Source of the DNA: Prevotellaceae bacterium
Lineage (GTDB): Bacteria; Bacteroidota; Bacteroidia; Bacteroidales; Bacteroidaceae
Reading direction: 5' to 3'
DNA length: 64,000 nucleotides
NCBI GenBank assembly: GCA_028723455.1
Contig: JAQYEW010000001.1
Coordinates: 62,001-126,000, forward strand
Part shown: one piece after another, positions 21,531-28,393 of the stretch
Numbering within the stretch: the first letter of the stretch is position 1
How the letters are laid out: every line of letters starts with the position of its first letter
The notes under the pieces: generated by a model
Seen by the model: only the letters and a program-made list of their open reading frames with translations
What the model was told of the DNA's origin: nothing
Database searches by the model: none
Made by a program: the position numbers and the translations under genes

Positions 21531-22259
21531 TTACGACTTCAGTTCTATCTGCAAATAGTCCAGGAGCACTTCGGGACGCTGATAGTTCATGATTAAGTCG
21601 TTGGGGAAATCCGTTTCCTTAAGCAAAGGCAGGCAATGCTCATAGTTTGCGATGTCCTTCGCTATATGGGCATCGCTACCTAATATAATAGGAATGTTCA
21701 TACGTTTGGCCAAACGCAAAATCTCCAGATTATTCTCGTAGGATTTTACCAAGCCACGTGCAGGCCGCATAGATGTGCTGTTCACCTCCAAGAGCGTACG
21801 GTGTTGCTTGGAGGCCTCCAACAGAGGTTCAAAAAACAAATCTGCCGCACCGTCGCCTGGATGCGAAATAACATGTGTCCAAGGGTTTGAGATAGCATGA
21901 ATCACGCCCTGCGTATTCTCCTCTTTGGTTCCTCCTTGCCAACAAAAGCCATGTATTCCCGCAATACGAATATCCAAACGCTTATAATAGGATTCATCCA
22001 GGTCGAGCCTGCCCGTAGTATCAAGAATATTGAGTTCCGCACCAAGCAGGAGAGACAAATTGTCCCATCGGCGAGGAACGACATGCAGATTACGGAAATA
22101 GATGGGGTCGCAAGTCCCCGGGATACTTGGCCCATGCTCCGTAATGCCCAAAAGGGACATCCCCTGTCGTTGCGCCTCCACGACCATCTCTGCCAGCGTA
22201 CTGAAGGCATGACCGGAAACAATCGTATGGGTGTGAATGTCAAGAAATGTTCTGTTCAT
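21531..22259 (-). CDS. PHP-domain phosphatase (YcdX-like)
   Basis: Metal-dependent phosphoesterase of the PHP superfamily, 242 residues. Metal-binding motifs appear in order: DIHTHTIVSGHAF (6-18), ITEHGP (about 39-44), AGIHG, LLEVNST and LGSDAHIAKD (near 200). Members hydrolyse small phosphomonoesters. I chose ATG 22259 (MNRTFLDIHTHT), since the 23 residues upstream overlap folE. It is 4 bases after the folE stop and last in the queD-queE-folE operon, where it might dephosphorylate a pterin intermediate; that link is inference. Confidence 0.85.
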   Translation of the reverse strand: MNRTFLDIHTHTIVSGHAFSTLAEMVVEAQRQGMSLLGITEHGPSIPGTCDPIYFRNLHVVPRRWDNLSLLLGAELNILDTTGRLDLDESYYKRLDIRIAGIHGFCWQGGTKEENTQGVIHAISNPWTHVISHPGDGAADLFFEPLLEASKQHRTLLEVNSTSMRPARGLVKSYENNLEILRLAKRMNIPIILGSDAHIAKDIANYEHCLPLLKETDFPNDLIMNYQRPEVLLDYLQIELKS

Positions 22260-22263
22260 AAAG

Positions 22264-22848
22264 CTAATCGCATATTGCCACTTGTTGCAGGAACTCCGCA
22301 CGCAACGAGGCATCGGTTTTGAAGGCACCCGTGAAATAGGTAACCTGCATCTCGCCCTGATTGCGCACGCCCCGCATGGACTTGCACATGTGCTGACCGC
22401 GCATCAGGATGGCAAAGCCGCGTGCCGTACCCTGAAGGGCTTCGGACAACATCTCCACAATATCACGCGCCAAACGCTCCTGCAACTGAAGGCGTGCGGC
22501 ACAGTAAGCAACGACACGGGCCACCTTGCTGATACCTAAAATGCGGCCATCGGCACTGGGAAGGTAAGCAAAGTAGTAGCGGCCAAAGAAAGGCAACACG
22601 TGGTGTTCACACATGCTGTAGTATTCTCCGCTGTCCATGACCATTTCTTCCGCATGCGCCTCGTTAGGAAAGGTGGTGATGGATGGTTTCATCTCTTCGT
22701 CGTAACCACGGAAAATCTCTTTCCACATACGCATGATGCGCTGTGGCGTATCCTTCAGCCCGTCGCGTTCCGGATCTTCGCCGATTGCCAAAAGAAGGGT
22801 TTTCAGCGCACGTTCAATATCTTGTGGGTTTGGAGTGACAGTTGCCAT
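22264..22848 (-). CDS. folE: GTP cyclohydrolase I
   Basis: Converts GTP to 7,8-dihydroneopterin triphosphate, the first step of both folate and queuosine/7-deazaguanine synthesis. The protein has 194 residues. The zinc-site motif MCEHHVLPFFG holds Cys and His ligands, and the second Cys is in VAYCAARLQLQERL. FKTDASLRAEFLQ is the typical C-terminus. The start overlaps the queE 3' end by 46 bases in another frame, and no later ATG would keep the N-terminal helix. Grouping with queD and queE favours a role in deazaguanine supply. Confidence 0.95.
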   Translation of the reverse strand: MATVTPNPQDIERALKTLLLAIGEDPERDGLKDTPQRIMRMWKEIFRGYDEEMKPSITTFPNEAHAEEMVMDSGEYYSMCEHHVLPFFGRYYFAYLPSADGRILGISKVARVVAYCAARLQLQERLARDIVEMLSEALQGTARGFAILMRGQHMCKSMRGVRNQGEMQVTYFTGAFKTDASLRAEFLQQVAICD

Positions 22849-23375
22849 GTGGGGTGCATTAAAATATAGTCAATAGTTTCTTTTAAAATCTCTTTGTTAC
22901 GAACCGCATCCCCGGTATCCAAGGGCTGCAGGCGGTACTCGGAAGCCGGCGTTTGCAGAAAGCCGCTCACATCCTGTCCCCAGAAAAGAACCTTCAGTTC
23001 GTTGACACCTTGGATTTTCACGTCGCCGCCCTCTTTAGGAGAGCACGTGACCCAATCCACCTTAACGCCTGGTTGCAGGGGGCGTGTGCCATTCGTTTCC
23101 AAATGGATCCGCCATCCTTGTTCTTGCAGAGCACCGCAAAGTTCAGCGTCCAACTGCAATGTAGGCTCCCCTCCTGTGATGACAACCGTACGCGCAGGAA
23201 AGGCATTCAAGGCATTCAGGATGTCCCGCAAGCTCATGGAAGAATAATTCTCATGACGGGTGTCGCAGAAGGAACAACGCAAATTACAGCCCGAGAAACG
23301 AAGAAAAACAGCGGGAGTGCCTGTGAATCTACCCTCACCTTGCAAGGAATAGAAGATTTCGTTGACACGATACAT
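22803..23375 (-). CDS. queE: 7-carboxy-7-deazaguanine synthase
   Basis: Radical-SAM enzyme of 190 residues that rearranges carboxytetrahydropterin to 7-carboxy-7-deazaguanine. The cluster cysteines are C30, C34 and C37 in SGCNLRCSFCDTRH. The opening NEIFYSLQGEGRFTGTPAVF and the end LSLQTHKILNVR are family hallmarks, as is the VVITGGEPTLQ segment. I chose ATG 23375 because the 32 residues upstream overlap queD and are unrelated. Eleven bases after queD. queC and queF are not in the window. Confidence 0.95.
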   Translation of the reverse strand: MYRVNEIFYSLQGEGRFTGTPAVFLRFSGCNLRCSFCDTRHENYSSMSLRDILNALNAFPARTVVITGGEPTLQLDAELCGALQEQGWRIHLETNGTRPLQPGVKVDWVTCSPKEGGDVKIQGVNELKVLFWGQDVSGFLQTPASEYRLQPLDTGDAVRNKEILKETIDYILMHPTWQLSLQTHKILNVR

Positions 23376-23386
23376 CTTTCGTTCGC

Positions 23387-23719
23387 CTAATCTTTGACGT
23401 AAGTGGCCGTGTTCCCTTCGCTCTCCTGCACATCCACACGGTAACATTTTTCCACACGGTCGCAAATCCATCGTGCTATGTTTTCTGCGGTAGGATTAAA
23501 GGGCAAGAGCTCGTTGAAATTTCCATGGTCCAGATAACCATGAACGTCCTCCTTTACATGGGTGAAATCCACAACCATTCCGTTCTCGTCCAGTTCCTTG
23601 GATTTACAATATATGGTAACAATCCAATTATGGCCATGCATCTTGGTACATTTGCTGGGATAAGGAAGCGTGAGTTGATGGCATCCTGCAATTTCGATGC
23701 GCTTTGATATATAATACAT
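23387..23719 (-). CDS. queD: 6-carboxy-5,6,7,8-tetrahydropterin synthase
   Basis: Second step of the 7-deazaguanine path, acting on dihydroneopterin triphosphate; 110 residues. Zinc-site and catalytic residues are visible in CHQLTLPYPSKCTKMHGHNW (His, catalytic Cys, HGH). VVDFTHVKEDV and LDHGNFNEL, PTAENIARWI follow, as expected of the family. ATG 23719 is the first ATG; the preceding in-frame codon that could start is TTG. First gene of the queD-queE-folE-PHP operon, with a good promoter 56 bases upstream. Confidence 0.95.
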   Translation of the reverse strand: MYYISKRIEIAGCHQLTLPYPSKCTKMHGHNWIVTIYCKSKELDENGMVVDFTHVKEDVHGYLDHGNFNELLPFNPTAENIARWICDRVEKCYRVDVQESEGNTATYVKD

Positions 23720-23774
23720 GTGCAAAGTTTTGTTTAAGGGGGTCGCTTTTACCCCTGATTAGTATTTCGGAGTG

Positions 23775-23805
23775 CAAAGTTAGCGTAAAAATAGGGAAAC
23801 ACAAA
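23775..23805 (-). promoter_or_regulatory. Canonical -33/-7 promoter of the queD operon
   Basis: On the minus strand TTTG (23805-23802), a 19-base spacer, then TAACTTTG (23782-23775). Confidence 0.7.
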
Positions 23806-23856
23806 AGAAGAACTAAAAAAAACAAATAAGAGCGATGTTTTCTCATACTTTTTCGC

Positions 23857-23864
23857 TAACTTTG
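23857..23864 (+). promoter_or_regulatory. Bacteroidetes -7 box for the carAB leader
   Basis: TAACTTTG, predicting a start near 23870, about 10 bases before the leader ORF and about 200 bases before carA. Confidence 0.65.
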
Positions 23865-23880
23865 CGCAAACAAACCGAGC

Positions 23881-24054
23881 ATGACGCACCTGAACTACTA
23901 CAACGGGCAACACGTAAGCCCCGAGTCCTGGCAGAGCAGCACACCCGCAGAGGCGTGTTCGGACGTTTGTCTTTATTTATTTAACTGCATGGTTGGGCCT
24001 TCTTCGGAAAATAATTGCCGAGAGAGAGCCCTTTCTTTTTCCCTGAACACATAG
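23881..24054 (+). CDS. Putative leader peptide of carAB (57 residues)
   Basis: An open frame from ATG 23881 to TAG 24052-24054, beginning MTHLNYYNGQHVSPE and ending ALSFSLNT. It starts about 10 bases after the predicted transcript start and ends 14 bases before carA. It has no family I recognise. Its second half runs through a T-rich stretch (TTTGTCTTTATTTATTTAA, 23966-23984) and across the whole terminator hairpin. This is the arrangement of the E. coli pyrL leader, where translation close behind the polymerase stops the hairpin forming. Whether the frame is really translated is unproven. Confidence 0.5.
   Translation: MTHLNYYNGQHVSPESWQSSTPAEACSDVCLYLFNCMVGPSSENNCRERALSFSLNT
23995..24040 (+). 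terminator. Intrinsic terminator/attenuator in the carAB leader
   Basis: GGGCCTTCTTCGG pairs with CCGAGAGAGAGCCC (about 12 pairs, one bulge, one mismatch; 10-base loop), followed by TTTCTTTTT. It lies inside the leader ORF and 28 bases before carA, so read-through must be controlled if carAB is to be expressed. Confidence 0.7.
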
Positions 24055-24068
24055 CTTAACACTATACA

Positions 24069-25154
24069 ATGAAAAAAGCAATTCTTAGGTTACAGGACGG
24101 TACGGAATTCTCCGGCTACTGTTTCGGTGCAGAAACGGCCGTTGCAGGCGAGGTTGTGTTTAACACCGCCATGATGGGGTATCCCGAAAGCATGACCGAC
24201 CCATCGTATGCAGGGCAAATCGTTGTTTTCACCTATCCCCTCGTAGGCAACTATGGCGTTCCCAGTGATGAATGTGCGGAAAACGGGCTAAGCCGTTTCA
24301 TGGAGGGAGACAAAATCCATGTGCGAGCCATTGTCGTAGGCGACTACAGTGCGGAATTCAGCCATTGGAACGCGAAAGAAAGTTTGGATGCATGGATGAA
24401 ACGCGAAGGCATACCAGGCATCACGGGCATTGACACAAGAGAGCTGACCAAAGTGTTGCGGGAACATGGCGTCATGATGGGTTCATTGGTGCCTGAAGGC
24501 ATGGAATCGCCCAAAGCGCAGTACGAAGGGGTTAATTTCGTATCGCAGGTAAGTTGCCAGGAAGTTACTACTTACCAACCCACCTCAGAACCCATCGGAA
24601 AGAAAGTAGTGCTTGTTGACTGCGGGGTCAAACACAACATTATCCGCTCGCTGCTTGAGCGTGGCGTTGAGGTGATTCGCGTGCCTTGGGATTACGATTT
24701 CAACCAACTGGACTTTGACGCCCTCTTCTTGGCAAACGGCCCCGGCGACCCGGAGACCTGTAAGCCCACAGTGGATAACATACGCAAATTCCTCCAGCAT
24801 CCGAAGGTACGTCCCTGCATGGGTATCTGCATGGGTAATCAGCTGTTGGCCAAAGCCGCCGGAGCACGCATCTACAAGCTCAAGTACGGACATCGTAGCC
24901 ACAACCAACCCGTGCGTCAGGCGGGCACCAACAGATGCTTCATCACAACGCAGAACCACGGCTATGCCGTTGACGCATCCACCATGTCCAATGACTGGGA
25001 GCCCCTGTTCGAGAACATGAACGACGGAAGCAACGAAGGTGTGCGGCACAAAACGAATCCCTGGTTCAGCGCTCAGTTCCATCCCGAGGCATGCGCAGGC
25101 CCACTGGACACGATGTTCCTCTTCGACGAGTTTGTTAATGCATTGAAAAAATAA
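24069..25154 (+). CDS. carA: Carbamoyl-phosphate synthase small subunit
   Basis: Glutamine amidotransferase subunit of 361 residues; it hydrolyses glutamine and passes ammonia to CarB for carbamoyl phosphate (pyrimidines and arginine). The N-terminal CarA domain contains LEDGTEFSG-like LQDGTEFSGYCFGAE and the NTAMMGYPESMTDPSY segment. The class I GATase domain has its nucleophile Cys at about 254 in MGICMGNQLL and the His-Glu pair in QFHPEA (about 336-341). It is 17 bases upstream of carB. Expression probably depends on the leader attenuator. Confidence 0.97.
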   Translation: MKKAILRLQDGTEFSGYCFGAETAVAGEVVFNTAMMGYPESMTDPSYAGQIVVFTYPLVGNYGVPSDECAENGLSRFMEGDKIHVRAIVVGDYSAEFSHWNAKESLDAWMKREGIPGITGIDTRELTKVLREHGVMMGSLVPEGMESPKAQYEGVNFVSQVSCQEVTTYQPTSEPIGKKVVLVDCGVKHNIIRSLLERGVEVIRVPWDYDFNQLDFDALFLANGPGDPETCKPTVDNIRKFLQHPKVRPCMGICMGNQLLAKAAGARIYKLKYGHRSHNQPVRQAGTNRCFITTQNHGYAVDASTMSNDWEPLFENMNDGSNEGVRHKTNPWFSAQFHPEACAGPLDTMFLFDEFVNALKK

Positions 25155-25171
25155 TCTGCGAAAAGAAAGCT

Positions 25172-28100
25172 ATGAATCAAATGATAAAGAAGGTTTTACT
25201 TTTGGGTAGCGGAGCCCTGAAAATTGGCGAAGCAGGAGAATTTGACTACAGTGGCAGCCAGGCCTTGAAAGCATTGAAGGAAGAGGGCGTAGAGACCATC
25301 CTCATCAACCCCAACATTGCGACCGTACAGACTTCGGAAGGTGTTGCCGACCAAATTTATTATCTGCCCGTAACACCCTATTTCGTAGAACGCGTCATAG
25401 AGAAGGAGCGCCCTCAGGGTATTCTGCTCAGCTTCGGAGGCCAGACAGCCTTGAACTGTGGTGTGGAATTGCACAAGAGCGGTGTGCTGGAGAAATATAA
25501 CGTGCAGGTTTTGGGCACACCCGTTAAGGCCATCATTGATACAGAAGACCGTGAACTCTTTGTACAGCGTCTGGACGAAATCGGCGTAAAAACCATCAAG
25601 AGCCAGGCATGCGAAAACATGGAAGAAGCCTGCAAGGCCGCCAAAGAGCTGGGCTATCCTGTAATCATACGCGCCGCCTATGCACTTGGAGGTTTGGGCA
25701 GCGGATTCTGCGACAACGAGGAGGAACTGAGACGTTTGGCAGAAAAAGCCTTCTCGTTCAGTCCGCAAGTACTCGTTGAGAAAAGCCTGAAAGGTTGGAA
25801 AGAAATAGAATACGAGGTAGTACGCGACCGCTTTGACAACTGCATTACGGTATGTAACATGGAGAATTTCGACCCTCTCGGCATCCATACCGGAGAAAGT
25901 ATCGTGATCGCTCCCAGCCAAACGCTTACCAATAGCGAATATCACAAGCTGCGCGCCCTGGCCATCAAGATTATCCGCCATATTGGCATTATCGGAGAGT
26001 GTAACGTACAGTATGCCTTTGACCCCGAAAGTGAAGATTATCGCGTGATTGAAGTTAATGCAAGACTTTCCCGCAGTTCTGCACTTGCCTCAAAAGCAAC
26101 AGGATATCCCTTGGCATTCGTTGCTGCCAAACTGGGGTTGGGATATGGACTCTTCGATCTGAAAAACAGCGTAACGAAAACCACCACCGCATTCTTTGAG
26201 CCAGCCCTTGATTATGTTGTCTGCAAAATTCCACGATGGGATTTGGGAAAGTTCCGTGGCGTTGACCGCGAACTGGGTAGCAGCATGAAGAGCGTGGGCG
26301 AAGTGATGGCCATTGGCCGAACCTTTGAAGAAGCCATTCAGAAGGGCCTGCGCATGATAGGACAAGGTATGCACGGATTTGTAGGTAACAAAGACTTTGA
26401 TCTCGAAGATCTGGATGCTGCCCTCCAAGCGCCAACGGACAAGCGCATCTTTGTTATCGAGAAGGCTTTCCTCGCAGGCTACAGCGTGGACCAAGTCCAT
26501 CAGCTCACAAAGATTGACAAATGGTTTTTGCAGAAGCTGTTGAACATCTACAACATCAACAATGACCTGCGTCAACAAAGCCTGGAAAGCCTTTGTCCGG
26601 AACTATTACGTAAGGCCAAGGTATATGGATTCACGGATTTCCAAATAGCACGCGCCCTGGGCATGGAGCAGGAAATGGATATTGAAAAGGCACTGTTGGC
26701 GGTTAGAACAAAGCGTAAGAGCTTAGGCATTATTCCCTATGTAAAGCAAATAGATACGTTAGCTGCGGAATACCCTGCTCAGACAAACTATCTCTACCTG
26801 ACCTATAACGCCACTGCACATGACGTAAGCTATGAACACGACAAGCTAAGCATCATTGTACTTGGTTCTGGGGCCTATCGCATCGGCAGCTCGGTAGAGT
26901 TCGACTGGTGTGGCGTGCAGGCATTGAATACCATTCGCAAACAAGGCTACCGCTCGGTGATGATTAACTACAACCCCGAAACGGTAAGCACGGATTATGA
27001 CATGTGCGACCGCCTTTATTTCGACGAGCTGAGCTTTGAACGCGTTTTGGATATTATCGACCTGGAATCTCCCCGCGGCGTAATTGTAAGCACGGGCGGA
27101 CAGATACCCAACAATCTGGCGTTGAAGCTTGACCATCAACAAGTGCCAATCCTTGGCACACAAGCCAAATACATTGATAATGCGGAGGACCGCGACAAAT
27201 TCTCGGCCATGCTCGACCGCATAGGAGTCGACCAGCCCGAATGGAGTGCGCTGACATCCATGGAGGATGTTTCGGACTTCGTTAAACGAGTTGGTTTCCC
27301 CGTACTTGTACGTCCCAGCTACGTACTTTCCGGAGCGGCCATGAATGTATGTTCAAACGAAGAAGAGCTCGAACGCTTCCTCACTTTGGCCGCTAACGTA
27401 TCGAAGAAGCACCCTGTTGTCGTCTCCAAATTCATGCAGAACACGAAGGAGGTCGAAATGGATGCCGTAGCGCAAAACGGAGAAATCATGGCTTATGCCA
27501 TCTCTGAGCACATTGAGTTTGCGGGCGTACACTCCGGCGACGCTACCATTCAGTTCCCTGCACAAAAGCTCTATGTCGAAACCGTTCGGCGTATCAAGAA
27601 AATCAGTGCTCAGATTGCACGCGAACTGAACATATCAGGCCCCTTCAACATTCAATACCTGGCACGCGAAAACGAGATTAAGGTCATTGAGTGCAACCTA
27701 CGTGCATCACGTTCTTTCCCCTTTGTGAGCAAAGTGTTGAAAGTAAACCTCATTGAACTGGCCACCCGTGTAATGCTCGGACTACCCGTAAAGAAACTTG
27801 AAAAGAGTTTCTTCGATTTCGATTACGTAGGCATCAAGGCCAGCCAATTCTCCTTCAACCGTCTTCAAAAGGCAGATCCCGTCTTAGGTGTAGACATGAG
27901 TTCTACGGGCGAGGTAGGTTGTCTCGGTCCCGACACGAACAGTGCCTTATTGCTGGCCATGCTGTCTGTGGGACATCGTATCCCCCAAAAGAACATTCTC
28001 CTTTCAACCGGAGGTGCCAAGGAAAAGGCCAGTCTGCTGGACACTGCGAAGATGCTGCGCGAGCATGGATATAATCTATATGCAACGGGGGGAACCAGCC

Positions 28101-28393
28101 GCTACCTAAAAGAAAACGGTGTTGAGAATACGCTGGTATATTGGCCCAGCGAAGAAGGGCTACAACCTCAGGCGCTTGATTTAATGCATGAGCACAAGAT
28201 CGACATGGTTGTGAACATTCCCAAAGACCTCACGACACACGAACTGACCAATGGTTACAAGATTCGCCGTACAGCTGTCGACAGGAATATCCCTCTCATC
28301 ACAAACAGTCGTCTGGCAGCTGCCTTCTGCAATGCTTTCTGCACGCTCAAGATTGAAGACCTGCCCATCGAGAGTTGGAGCGAATACAAATAA
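25172..28393 (+). CDS. carB: Carbamoyl-phosphate synthase large subunit
   Basis: Synthetase of 1073 residues made of two homologous ATP-grasp halves: the N-terminal half (about 1-400) carboxy-phosphate-forming, the C-terminal half (about 550-930) carbamate-phosphorylating. It opens with KKVLLLGSGALKIGEAGEFD and repeats IIVLGSGAYRIGSSVEFDW at about 563. The allosteric MGS-like domain follows (about 940-1073; ILLSTGGAKEKASLL, NLYATGGTSRYL), where UMP and ornithine bind in characterised enzymes. Full length and intact; start fixed by the family opening. Terminator 22 bases after the stop. Confidence 0.98.
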   Translation: MNQMIKKVLLLGSGALKIGEAGEFDYSGSQALKALKEEGVETILINPNIATVQTSEGVADQIYYLPVTPYFVERVIEKERPQGILLSFGGQTALNCGVELHKSGVLEKYNVQVLGTPVKAIIDTEDRELFVQRLDEIGVKTIKSQACENMEEACKAAKELGYPVIIRAAYALGGLGSGFCDNEEELRRLAEKAFSFSPQVLVEKSLKGWKEIEYEVVRDRFDNCITVCNMENFDPLGIHTGESIVIAPSQTLTNSEYHKLRALAIKIIRHIGIIGECNVQYAFDPESEDYRVIEVNARLSRSSALASKATGYPLAFVAAKLGLGYGLFDLKNSVTKTTTAFFEPALDYVVCKIPRWDLGKFRGVDRELGSSMKSVGEVMAIGRTFEEAIQKGLRMIGQGMHGFVGNKDFDLEDLDAALQAPTDKRIFVIEKAFLAGYSVDQVHQLTKIDKWFLQKLLNIYNINNDLRQQSLESLCPELLRKAKVYGFTDFQIARALGMEQEMDIEKALLAVRTKRKSLGIIPYVKQIDTLAAEYPAQTNYLYLTYNATAHDVSYEHDKLSIIVLGSGAYRIGSSVEFDWCGVQALNTIRKQGYRSVMINYNPETVSTDYDMCDRLYFDELSFERVLDIIDLESPRGVIVSTGGQIPNNLALKLDHQQVPILGTQAKYIDNAEDRDKFSAMLDRIGVDQPEWSALTSMEDVSDFVKRVGFPVLVRPSYVLSGAAMNVCSNEEELERFLTLAANVSKKHPVVVSKFMQNTKEVEMDAVAQNGEIMAYAISEHIEFAGVHSGDATIQFPAQKLYVETVRRIKKISAQIARELNISGPFNIQYLARENEIKVIECNLRASRSFPFVSKVLKVNLIELATRVMLGLPVKKLEKSFFDFDYVGIKASQFSFNRLQKADPVLGVDMSSTGEVGCLGPDTNSALLLAMLSVGHRIPQKNILLSTGGAKEKASLLDTAKMLREHGYNLYATGGTSRYLKENGVENTLVYWPSEEGLQPQALDLMHEHKIDMVVNIPKDLTTHELTNGYKIRRTAVDRNIPLITNSRLAAAFCNAFCTLKIEDLPIESWSEYK

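Follow-up and report, generated by a model that had tools for sequence, protein, structure and literature searches.

A putative ribosome-coupled attenuator of carAB in Bacteroidota that may have arisen within an upstream PurF-like gene and outlived it

The leader that precedes carAB in the window (the whole stretch of 64,000 nucleotides of Prevotellaceae DNA analyzed here) is best explained as a ribosome-coupled transcription attenuator that arose within purF2, a PurF-like gene found upstream of carA in relatives, and was kept when the operon copy of that gene decayed. We give this reading a probability of roughly two in three. That the attenuator evolved inside purF2, at codon 116, and outlived the gene several times as a short leader-peptide gene seems to us somewhat better than an even bet. 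The support comes from sequence, namely the hairpin with its T-run, an excess of this combination over synonymous codon choices, covariation of paired bases, repeated retention of the hairpin, and an open reading frame (ORF) that reaches it. From these we infer that the hairpin terminates transcription, that the ORF is translated and that coupling of the two decides the outcome. The input might, as a guess, be UTP, or the general nucleotide and translation state. What cannot be noticed without relatives is that the same hairpin lies within a PurF-like gene, upstream of carAB in other genomes, and that several leaders are visible remnants of it.

The leader lies between carA and a divergent queD-like ORF on the minus strand. 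On the forward strand, a promoter −7 box, TAACTTTG (positions 23857–23864), was recognized by the Bacteroidota consensus TAnnTTTG (PMC9723704), and transcription would be expected to start about 5–8 nt past it. A predicted leader ORF of 57 codons (23881–24054, ATG at 23881) spans the hairpin. It contains a U-rich tract (23966–23984), a possible pause region that is not conserved among the other leaders, and the hairpin itself (23995–24031), whose matches to two covariance models described below, R1 and R2, mark it as a likely homolog of the hairpin within purF2 of relatives. The T-run TTTCTTTTT (24032–24040, 8 T of 9) is the predicted termination point. The ATG of carA, which encodes the small subunit of glutamine-hydrolysing carbamoyl-phosphate synthase (24069–25154; TIGR01368, 445.3 bits, cut-off 307.35), is at 24069, 14 nt past the leader ORF stop, and is followed by carB for the large subunit (25172–28393), an ORF named by its sequence and place. 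The initial annotation had described a promoter, a 57-codon ORF, a U-rich tract, a hairpin within the ORF and carA, and all of these lie where it had put them. The window leader has the layout of a pyrBI-type attenuator, a promoter and then a short ORF overlapping an intrinsic-terminator-like hairpin, and the form of an intrinsic terminator, a G+C-rich hairpin directly followed by a U-run, is found in the window, in 25 intact purF2 genes and in 12 other leaders. On the minus strand, a preQ1 riboswitch-like match (23718–23761; 17 bits against a gathering score of 39, E 5.3) is flanked by a minus-strand TAACTTTG-type box on one side and queD-, queE- and folE-like ORFs on the other; a preQ1 element would make sense at this place, the match being below threshold.

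Taken alone, the window leader is suggestive only and not far above chance. The hairpin folds at −14.5 kcal/mol alone and −15.7 kcal/mol with its flanks. The 47 nt around it have a z-score of −1.69, with 13 of 200 shuffles folding equally well, and the whole leader has a z-score of +0.25. The leader ORF reaches the hairpin in 25–39% of shuffles. A consensus terminator scan did not list the hairpin among its sites because the loop of 10 exceeds the limit of 8 in that tool, and a comparison of positions 22000–26000 with 4227 Rfam families gave eight matches, all under the gathering score. Given the unremarkable folding z-scores and the miss by the terminator scan, the single-sequence evidence was set aside; it is the comparison with relatives that lifts the window leader above chance.

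The best 80 CarA loci from a scan of GTDB genomes, whose record titles name Prevotellaceae, Prevotella, Paraprevotella, Alloprevotella, Bacteroidaceae, Bacteroidales and a few similar groups, served as the sample of relatives. In 43 of the 80, carA is preceded by a 631-aa PurF-like gene for which we coined the name purF2; its representative in L070 scores 134.6 bits against TIGR01134, under the 350-bit cut-off. A −7 box stands 30–58 nt before the purF2 ATG in 19 of 27 genes and at about 100 nt in two, and none was found within 110 nt of the ATG in six. purF2 was not found at the other 37 loci, one of which (L051) has only 32 nt upstream. Six of these 37 (L014, L015, L018, L021, L034 and L059) carry before carA a leader like that of the window, with promoter, ORF, hairpin and T-run. 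Two purF2-less loci, L023 and L043, have a different G+C-rich inverted repeat upstream of carA (GAGGAGTGCTG...CAGCACCCCTCC in L023), with no T-run. The window genome (88% complete) gave no purF2 match at E 1e-50 or at E 1e-5, and its other PurF-like gene, of 470 aa, reaches 198.1 bits with TIGR01134, also below the cut-off.

Two covariance models tie the window hairpin to those of relatives. R1, built from four of the six leaders with the window left out, finds the hairpin as its best match within the window (21.5 bits, E 0.0093 in 610 kb). R2, built from 25 intact purF2 genes with no leader included, also places it as the top site in the 64 kb (15.2 bits, E 0.072; runner-up 13.8), although this score is by itself weak and not significant. 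Among 55 loci taken as purF2-less, one of which (L132) holds a 3′ part of purF2, R2 recovered the six leaders, each scoring at least 37.8 bits, besides a single weak site in L017. Applied to 301 genomes of the family, R2 matched 99 with an E of at most 0.001, spread over 18 of the 30 genera; the weaker family matches need not be hairpins, as shown by a 43.3-bit match in L220 that folds poorly. The family and genus searches added six further leaders, four before carA (L211, L274, L281 and L283) and two before carB (L225 and L288). Reading of the matched loci gave purF2 in all 30 of L180–L209 and in 15 of the 26 of L266–L291, the latter also including one locus cut by a contig end and ten leaders, of which six had been seen before. 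A search of 139 genomes from the window's genus gave 43 places; with the exception of the window's own, none covers the window leader, which counts against the favored reading. L017 (24.9 bits with R1, 19.4 with R2) and L019 (17.1 bits with R1) were left out of the leader count. They share a similar hairpin and T-run between carA and an upstream gene that we read as glmS (2792–2839 in L017, 2894–2941 in L019); in L017 this gene ends before the hairpin. This hairpin is probably the upstream gene's own terminator, or perhaps another attenuator.

Strong R1 sites about 1.5 kb upstream of carA were considered as a free-standing RNA motif before purF2-carAB, and this was rejected, the sites being inside purF2. 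There they overlie codons for GHLRYSTTGKRALSF or GHLRYSTTGKSGLSF, and the position of the hairpin is fixed at codon 116 in 25 genes (L035 is cut at its start). For the synonymous test, 16 codons were swapped according to each gene's own usage, giving 2000 variants for each of 42 purF2 genes (the 43 minus L078, whose gene is cut short). The combination of hairpin and T-run was matched by at most 4 of the 2000 variants in each of 25 genes, and nothing stood out at the hairpin site in the remaining 17. Because the 25 genes were picked out with the hairpin already known, their single z-scores are selected; fairly put, the combination occurs in 25 of 42 genes, at one place. Protein coding as the sole cause of the hairpin was rejected on this test, and also on the same protein motif occurring without the hairpin in 17 of the 42 genes and in all 30 loci of the order-level search described below. 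Paired positions of the intact genes covary (0.161 versus 0.109 in shuffles, reached in 0 of 500). In one pair, the wobble base of a Gly codon and the second base of an Ala or Gly codon are C-G in 18 genes, G-C in four and T-G in two, and in another, the first base of a Leu codon and the third base of a Lys codon are C-G in 21, T-A in two and unpaired in one. Two other measures of covariation in intact purF2 were within chance, pairs changed on both sides (63 of 500) and further pair types (329 of 500).

On the coding strand of the 25 operons with the hairpin (145 kb), the scan gave 27 further terminator-like sites, and on the opposite strand 81; in the 17 operons without the hairpin (96 kb), it gave none at the purF2 site and 42 elsewhere. 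An order-level search for purF2 gave 103 matches in 101 of 119 genomes, and the hairpin was absent in all 30 of the loci fetched, the best 30 of the 103 (lowest joint chance value 13/500). None of these loci is from the window's genus, and 29 represent different families within the order. Two purF2 loci from the window's genus, L089 and L090, have the hairpin. Two Paraprevotella genes, L048 and L079, have lost it, a loss that includes the amino-acid change KK for KS, and their near relatives L012, L016 (Paraprevotella clara YIT 11840) and L063 keep it.

Thirteen genomes, including that of the window, have no purF2 at the locus and carry a promoter, the hairpin and a T-run before carA (11) or carB (2). 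Several of these leaders retain recognizable parts of the gene. L059, L034 and L021 keep three islands of purF2, the promoter and start region, the hairpin, and the 3′ end immediately upstream of carA. In L015, the promoter region and the hairpin are left, and in L014 the hairpin. L211 holds an in-frame mini-purF2 of 116 aa that begins MEPMKRKCGAAITRL, carries GHLRYCITGKSGLSF and ends DYYESIYTKRQ at carA. The carB leaders (L225/L287 at G326:C16:24942–24985, L288 at G502:C23:108762–108804) lie directly in front of carB and have T-runs of eight T, and their short ORFs share the letters FMGQP. In L242, carA was not found in 7 kb. Another purF2 copy is present elsewhere in six of the eight leader genomes searched (eight of the 13 were covered), with none in G000 and G069. 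The distant copy in G187 has a frame break near its start, and none of the six distant copies has a comparable hairpin (z-scores −2.25 to +0.88). In four genomes (G024, G187, G025 and G254), a second, shorter purF2 lies away from carA (L220, L243, L244 and L245), and its GKSGLQYV motif resembles that of Prevotella-like purF2 without the hairpin. This second gene may have come from a different lineage, ahead of the decay of the operon copy.

On phylogenetic trees, the leaders are scattered among intact operons, a distribution that would force three to four separate decays of purF2. The first tree (87 rows, 7 leaders) requires five changes, at least four of them forced; the second (39 rows, 8 leaders) four changes, four forced; and the third, of CarA only (33 rows, 11 leaders), four changes, three forced. 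The carB leaders were left out of the trees. The counts are blind to gain versus loss, but the remnants of purF2 in L059, L034, L021 and L211 favor loss. The closest relatives of the window on the trees are its sisters L001 and L002, both with purF2 and the hairpin. Its hairpin is the most diverged among the 13. In local alignments of the window leader with purF2 of the nearest relatives, the hairpin part gave P 0.007, the middle P 0.047, the 5′ part P 0.060, placed away from the purF2 start, and the 3′ part P 0.85, so that outside the hairpin no clear purF2 homology is apparent. It is the two hairpin models and the tree that support a descent of the window leader from purF2.

Such leaders could be functionless fossils of a recently decayed purF2, or plain terminators against stray transcription. 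L021, L034, L059 and L274 do sit on short branches beside intact genes, and 31 of the 37 loci without adjacent purF2 among the best 80 CarA loci have no hairpin, which is therefore dispensable. However, the hairpin is retained while its surroundings diverge. In the clade of L211, L014, L281 and L283, the hairpin and T-run are 78–91% identical and the 44-nt flanks 25–66% upstream and 2–59% downstream; in the group of L021, L034, L274 and L059, the corresponding values are 85–100%, 30–80% and 18–91%, all rough figures from short alignments. Paired bases have also changed together in the leaders. An alignment that omits the window, with 12 leaders and 10 distinct hairpins among them, has 98.5% of its cells paired and a covariation of 0.287 versus 0.166 (0 of 500), and eight leaders including that of the window give 98.1% and 0.343 versus 0.193 (0 of 500), both alignments being fitted to the model, which favours pairing. 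T-runs of 7–8 T persist in several leaders, an ORF reaches the hairpin in all 13, and the hairpin exceeds synonymous expectation already in the intact gene. We consider a fossil or a plain terminator unlikely.

The ORF was defined by the first ATG after the promoter box, with a stop up to 12 nt before the hairpin tolerated, a limit fixed after L225 had been seen to stop there. An extra ATG in L034, about two bases past the −7 box, was excluded as lying at or before the expected start. Counting stops within those 12 nt, all 13 leaders have an ORF that reaches the hairpin. The ORF continues through the hairpin in eight, ends at the hairpin base in two and within the hairpin in one, and in the two carB leaders ends 12 and 8 nt short of it. 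The chance of this is 0.16 to 0.57 for single leaders and jointly about 0.006 for one leader per lineage (five lineages, taking the largest value in three, and 0.300 and 0.175 in the others). The joint value for all 13, which are not independent, is about 2e-7, and an earlier ATG-to-hairpin test on six leaders gave 2.5e-5. The leader peptides are conserved neither in sequence nor in frame, and in four of six leader ORFs the frame relative to the hairpin differs from that of purF2, so that being read, and not the peptide, seems to be kept. The initial annotation had proposed aligning the leader among relatives for ORF frame, U-tract and hairpin; the hairpin is kept in the 13 leaders, and neither the ORF frame nor the U-tract is conserved.

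Two further readings were weighed. Carbamoyl phosphate from carAB also feeds arginine, so a leader peptide with sensed codons, for example for arginine, could attenuate the operon in response to an amino acid, but the 13 peptides share, by eye, no single-residue run before the hairpin and their frames differ, which makes this extremely unlikely. The terminated RNA could itself be a small RNA, with any effect on carAB secondary. In the window, a transcript from promoter to terminator would be about 170 nt long; however, the leader outside the hairpin is not conserved and offers no evident seed, and we regard this as very unlikely.

In the ribosome-coupled attenuator that we favor, RNA polymerase would start just upstream of the short ORF. 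A ribosome close behind it would cover the 5′ arm of the hairpin, and transcription would enter carAB; with a ribosome late or absent, the hairpin would form and, together with the T-run, end transcription near position 24040. The terminator would have originated in the coding sequence of purF2, as first gene of a purF2-carA-carB operon, and in the intact operon translation of the first 116 codons of purF2 itself would act as the leader peptide. When the operon purF2 decayed, promoter, start and hairpin would have been kept and most else deleted, leaving a pyrL-like leader. An antiterminator was rejected as a component, the best upstream duplex with the 5′ arm (−5.8 to −11.9 kcal/mol) being weaker than the hairpin (−14.5 to −19.4 kcal/mol) in all six leaders compared.

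A stricter form of this explanation, compatible with it, is a true pyrBI-type UTP sensor, in which low UTP would make the polymerase pause in the U-rich tract, allowing the ribosome to catch up and avert termination, and carAB would respond to pyrimidines specifically. The targets, carA or carB, and the pyrL-like layout agree with it, as does the T-rich stretch before the hairpin in the window (T fraction 0.50 over 40 nt) and in L015 (0.47). T-richness is nevertheless not general: the fraction spans 0.23–0.50 in seven leaders (L014 0.23, L034 0.28) and is 0.28 in the 25 intact purF2 genes versus 0.22 gene-wide, and pyrB, pyrE and upp of the window genome have, by eye, no comparable leader. With a U-tract that is not shared by the leaders in general, a UTP-dependent pause is a guess, and a dedicated UTP sensor is a possibility that we hold tentatively. 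The pyrL-pyrBI logic put forward in the initial annotation thus holds for the layout, which recurs in 13 leaders, and does not extend to a conserved U-tract.

The hairpin might alternatively bind a protein, PyrR-like, or a small molecule, with the ORF incidental. Bulged bases recur on the 3′ side of its stem, and its primary sequence is fairly well kept, but in intact genes that sequence is also fixed by the protein, and the loop and the bulges are different in the hairpins of the window and the carB leaders. No Rfam match exceeded its gathering score, and no PyrR is among the six PF00156 proteins of the window genome (88% complete). Four of these six are hypoxanthine, adenine, orotate and uracil phosphoribosyltransferases by NCBIfam, and the remaining two we take to be Prs (312 aa) and a ComF-like protein. 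Binding of this kind is quite unlikely.

If the ribosome-coupled reading is correct, these loci show, as can rarely be seen, how a gene becomes a regulatory leader. The route to a leader-peptide attenuator would run through an intragenic terminator under synonymous-site selection and then decay of the gene around it, with the 116-aa mini-gene of L211 as an intermediate still visible. It would follow that a terminator acting on a whole operon can reside in the synonymous sites of an enzyme gene, that small ORFs heading carAB may be leaders, and that some classical-looking leader peptides may be gene fossils and not new inventions. Close coupling of transcription and translation would be predicted in these Bacteroidota, for which the leader would be a natural reporter.

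Among known systems, attenuation at E. coli rph(orfE)-pyrE uses a terminator after a full-length upstream gene whose ribosome controls it. The intact purF2 operon would resemble it in that the controlling ribosome ahead of a pyrimidine gene comes from an entire upstream gene instead of a leader peptide, and differs in that the terminator is at codon 116 inside the gene and the gene was apparently lost repeatedly. As in pyrL-pyrBI, a short ORF in the leaders overlaps a predicted intrinsic terminator ahead of a pyrimidine gene, no antiterminator is needed, and a ribosome on the ORF would prevent termination. At the E. coli pyr leader hairpin, termination is inhibited by an advancing ribosome (PMC5021804). 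Unlike in pyrL-pyrBI, the terminator here would be of enzyme-gene origin and is still intragenic in 25 of the 42 relatives examined, peptides and U-tract are unconserved, the target is carAB instead of pyrBI, and the hosts are Bacteroidota. In the same phylum, leader-peptide attenuators are described for amino-acid operons of Flavobacterium psychrophilum, where transcription is proposed to depend on whether a short ORF is translated; the accessible portion of that paper gives no carAB or purF example (PMC9723704). Small ORFs in 5′ UTRs are also reported for B. thetaiotaomicron (PMC7366714). No carAB or purF leader or intragenic attenuator in Bacteroidota was recognized in the titles and abstract openings of the open-access matches listed, a body of literature mostly without subscription journals. 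The carA motif of beta-proteobacteria, mostly Polynucleobacter, is likewise a structured RNA immediately upstream of carA, proposed to be a riboswitch, but it is an extended imperfect hairpin by the ribosome-binding site, and a leader ORF is unmentioned in the available part of its description (PMC8632094). Finally, terminators of decayed insertion sequences have been proposed as exapted attenuators, in which a terminator left by a decayed gene likewise comes to attenuate the next gene (PMC2965389). In its available text, that proposal concerns the 5′ and 3′ terminators of mobile elements, whereas the terminator here is internal to a metabolic gene of the same operon, would have been selected before the decay, and was kept together with a leader ORF.
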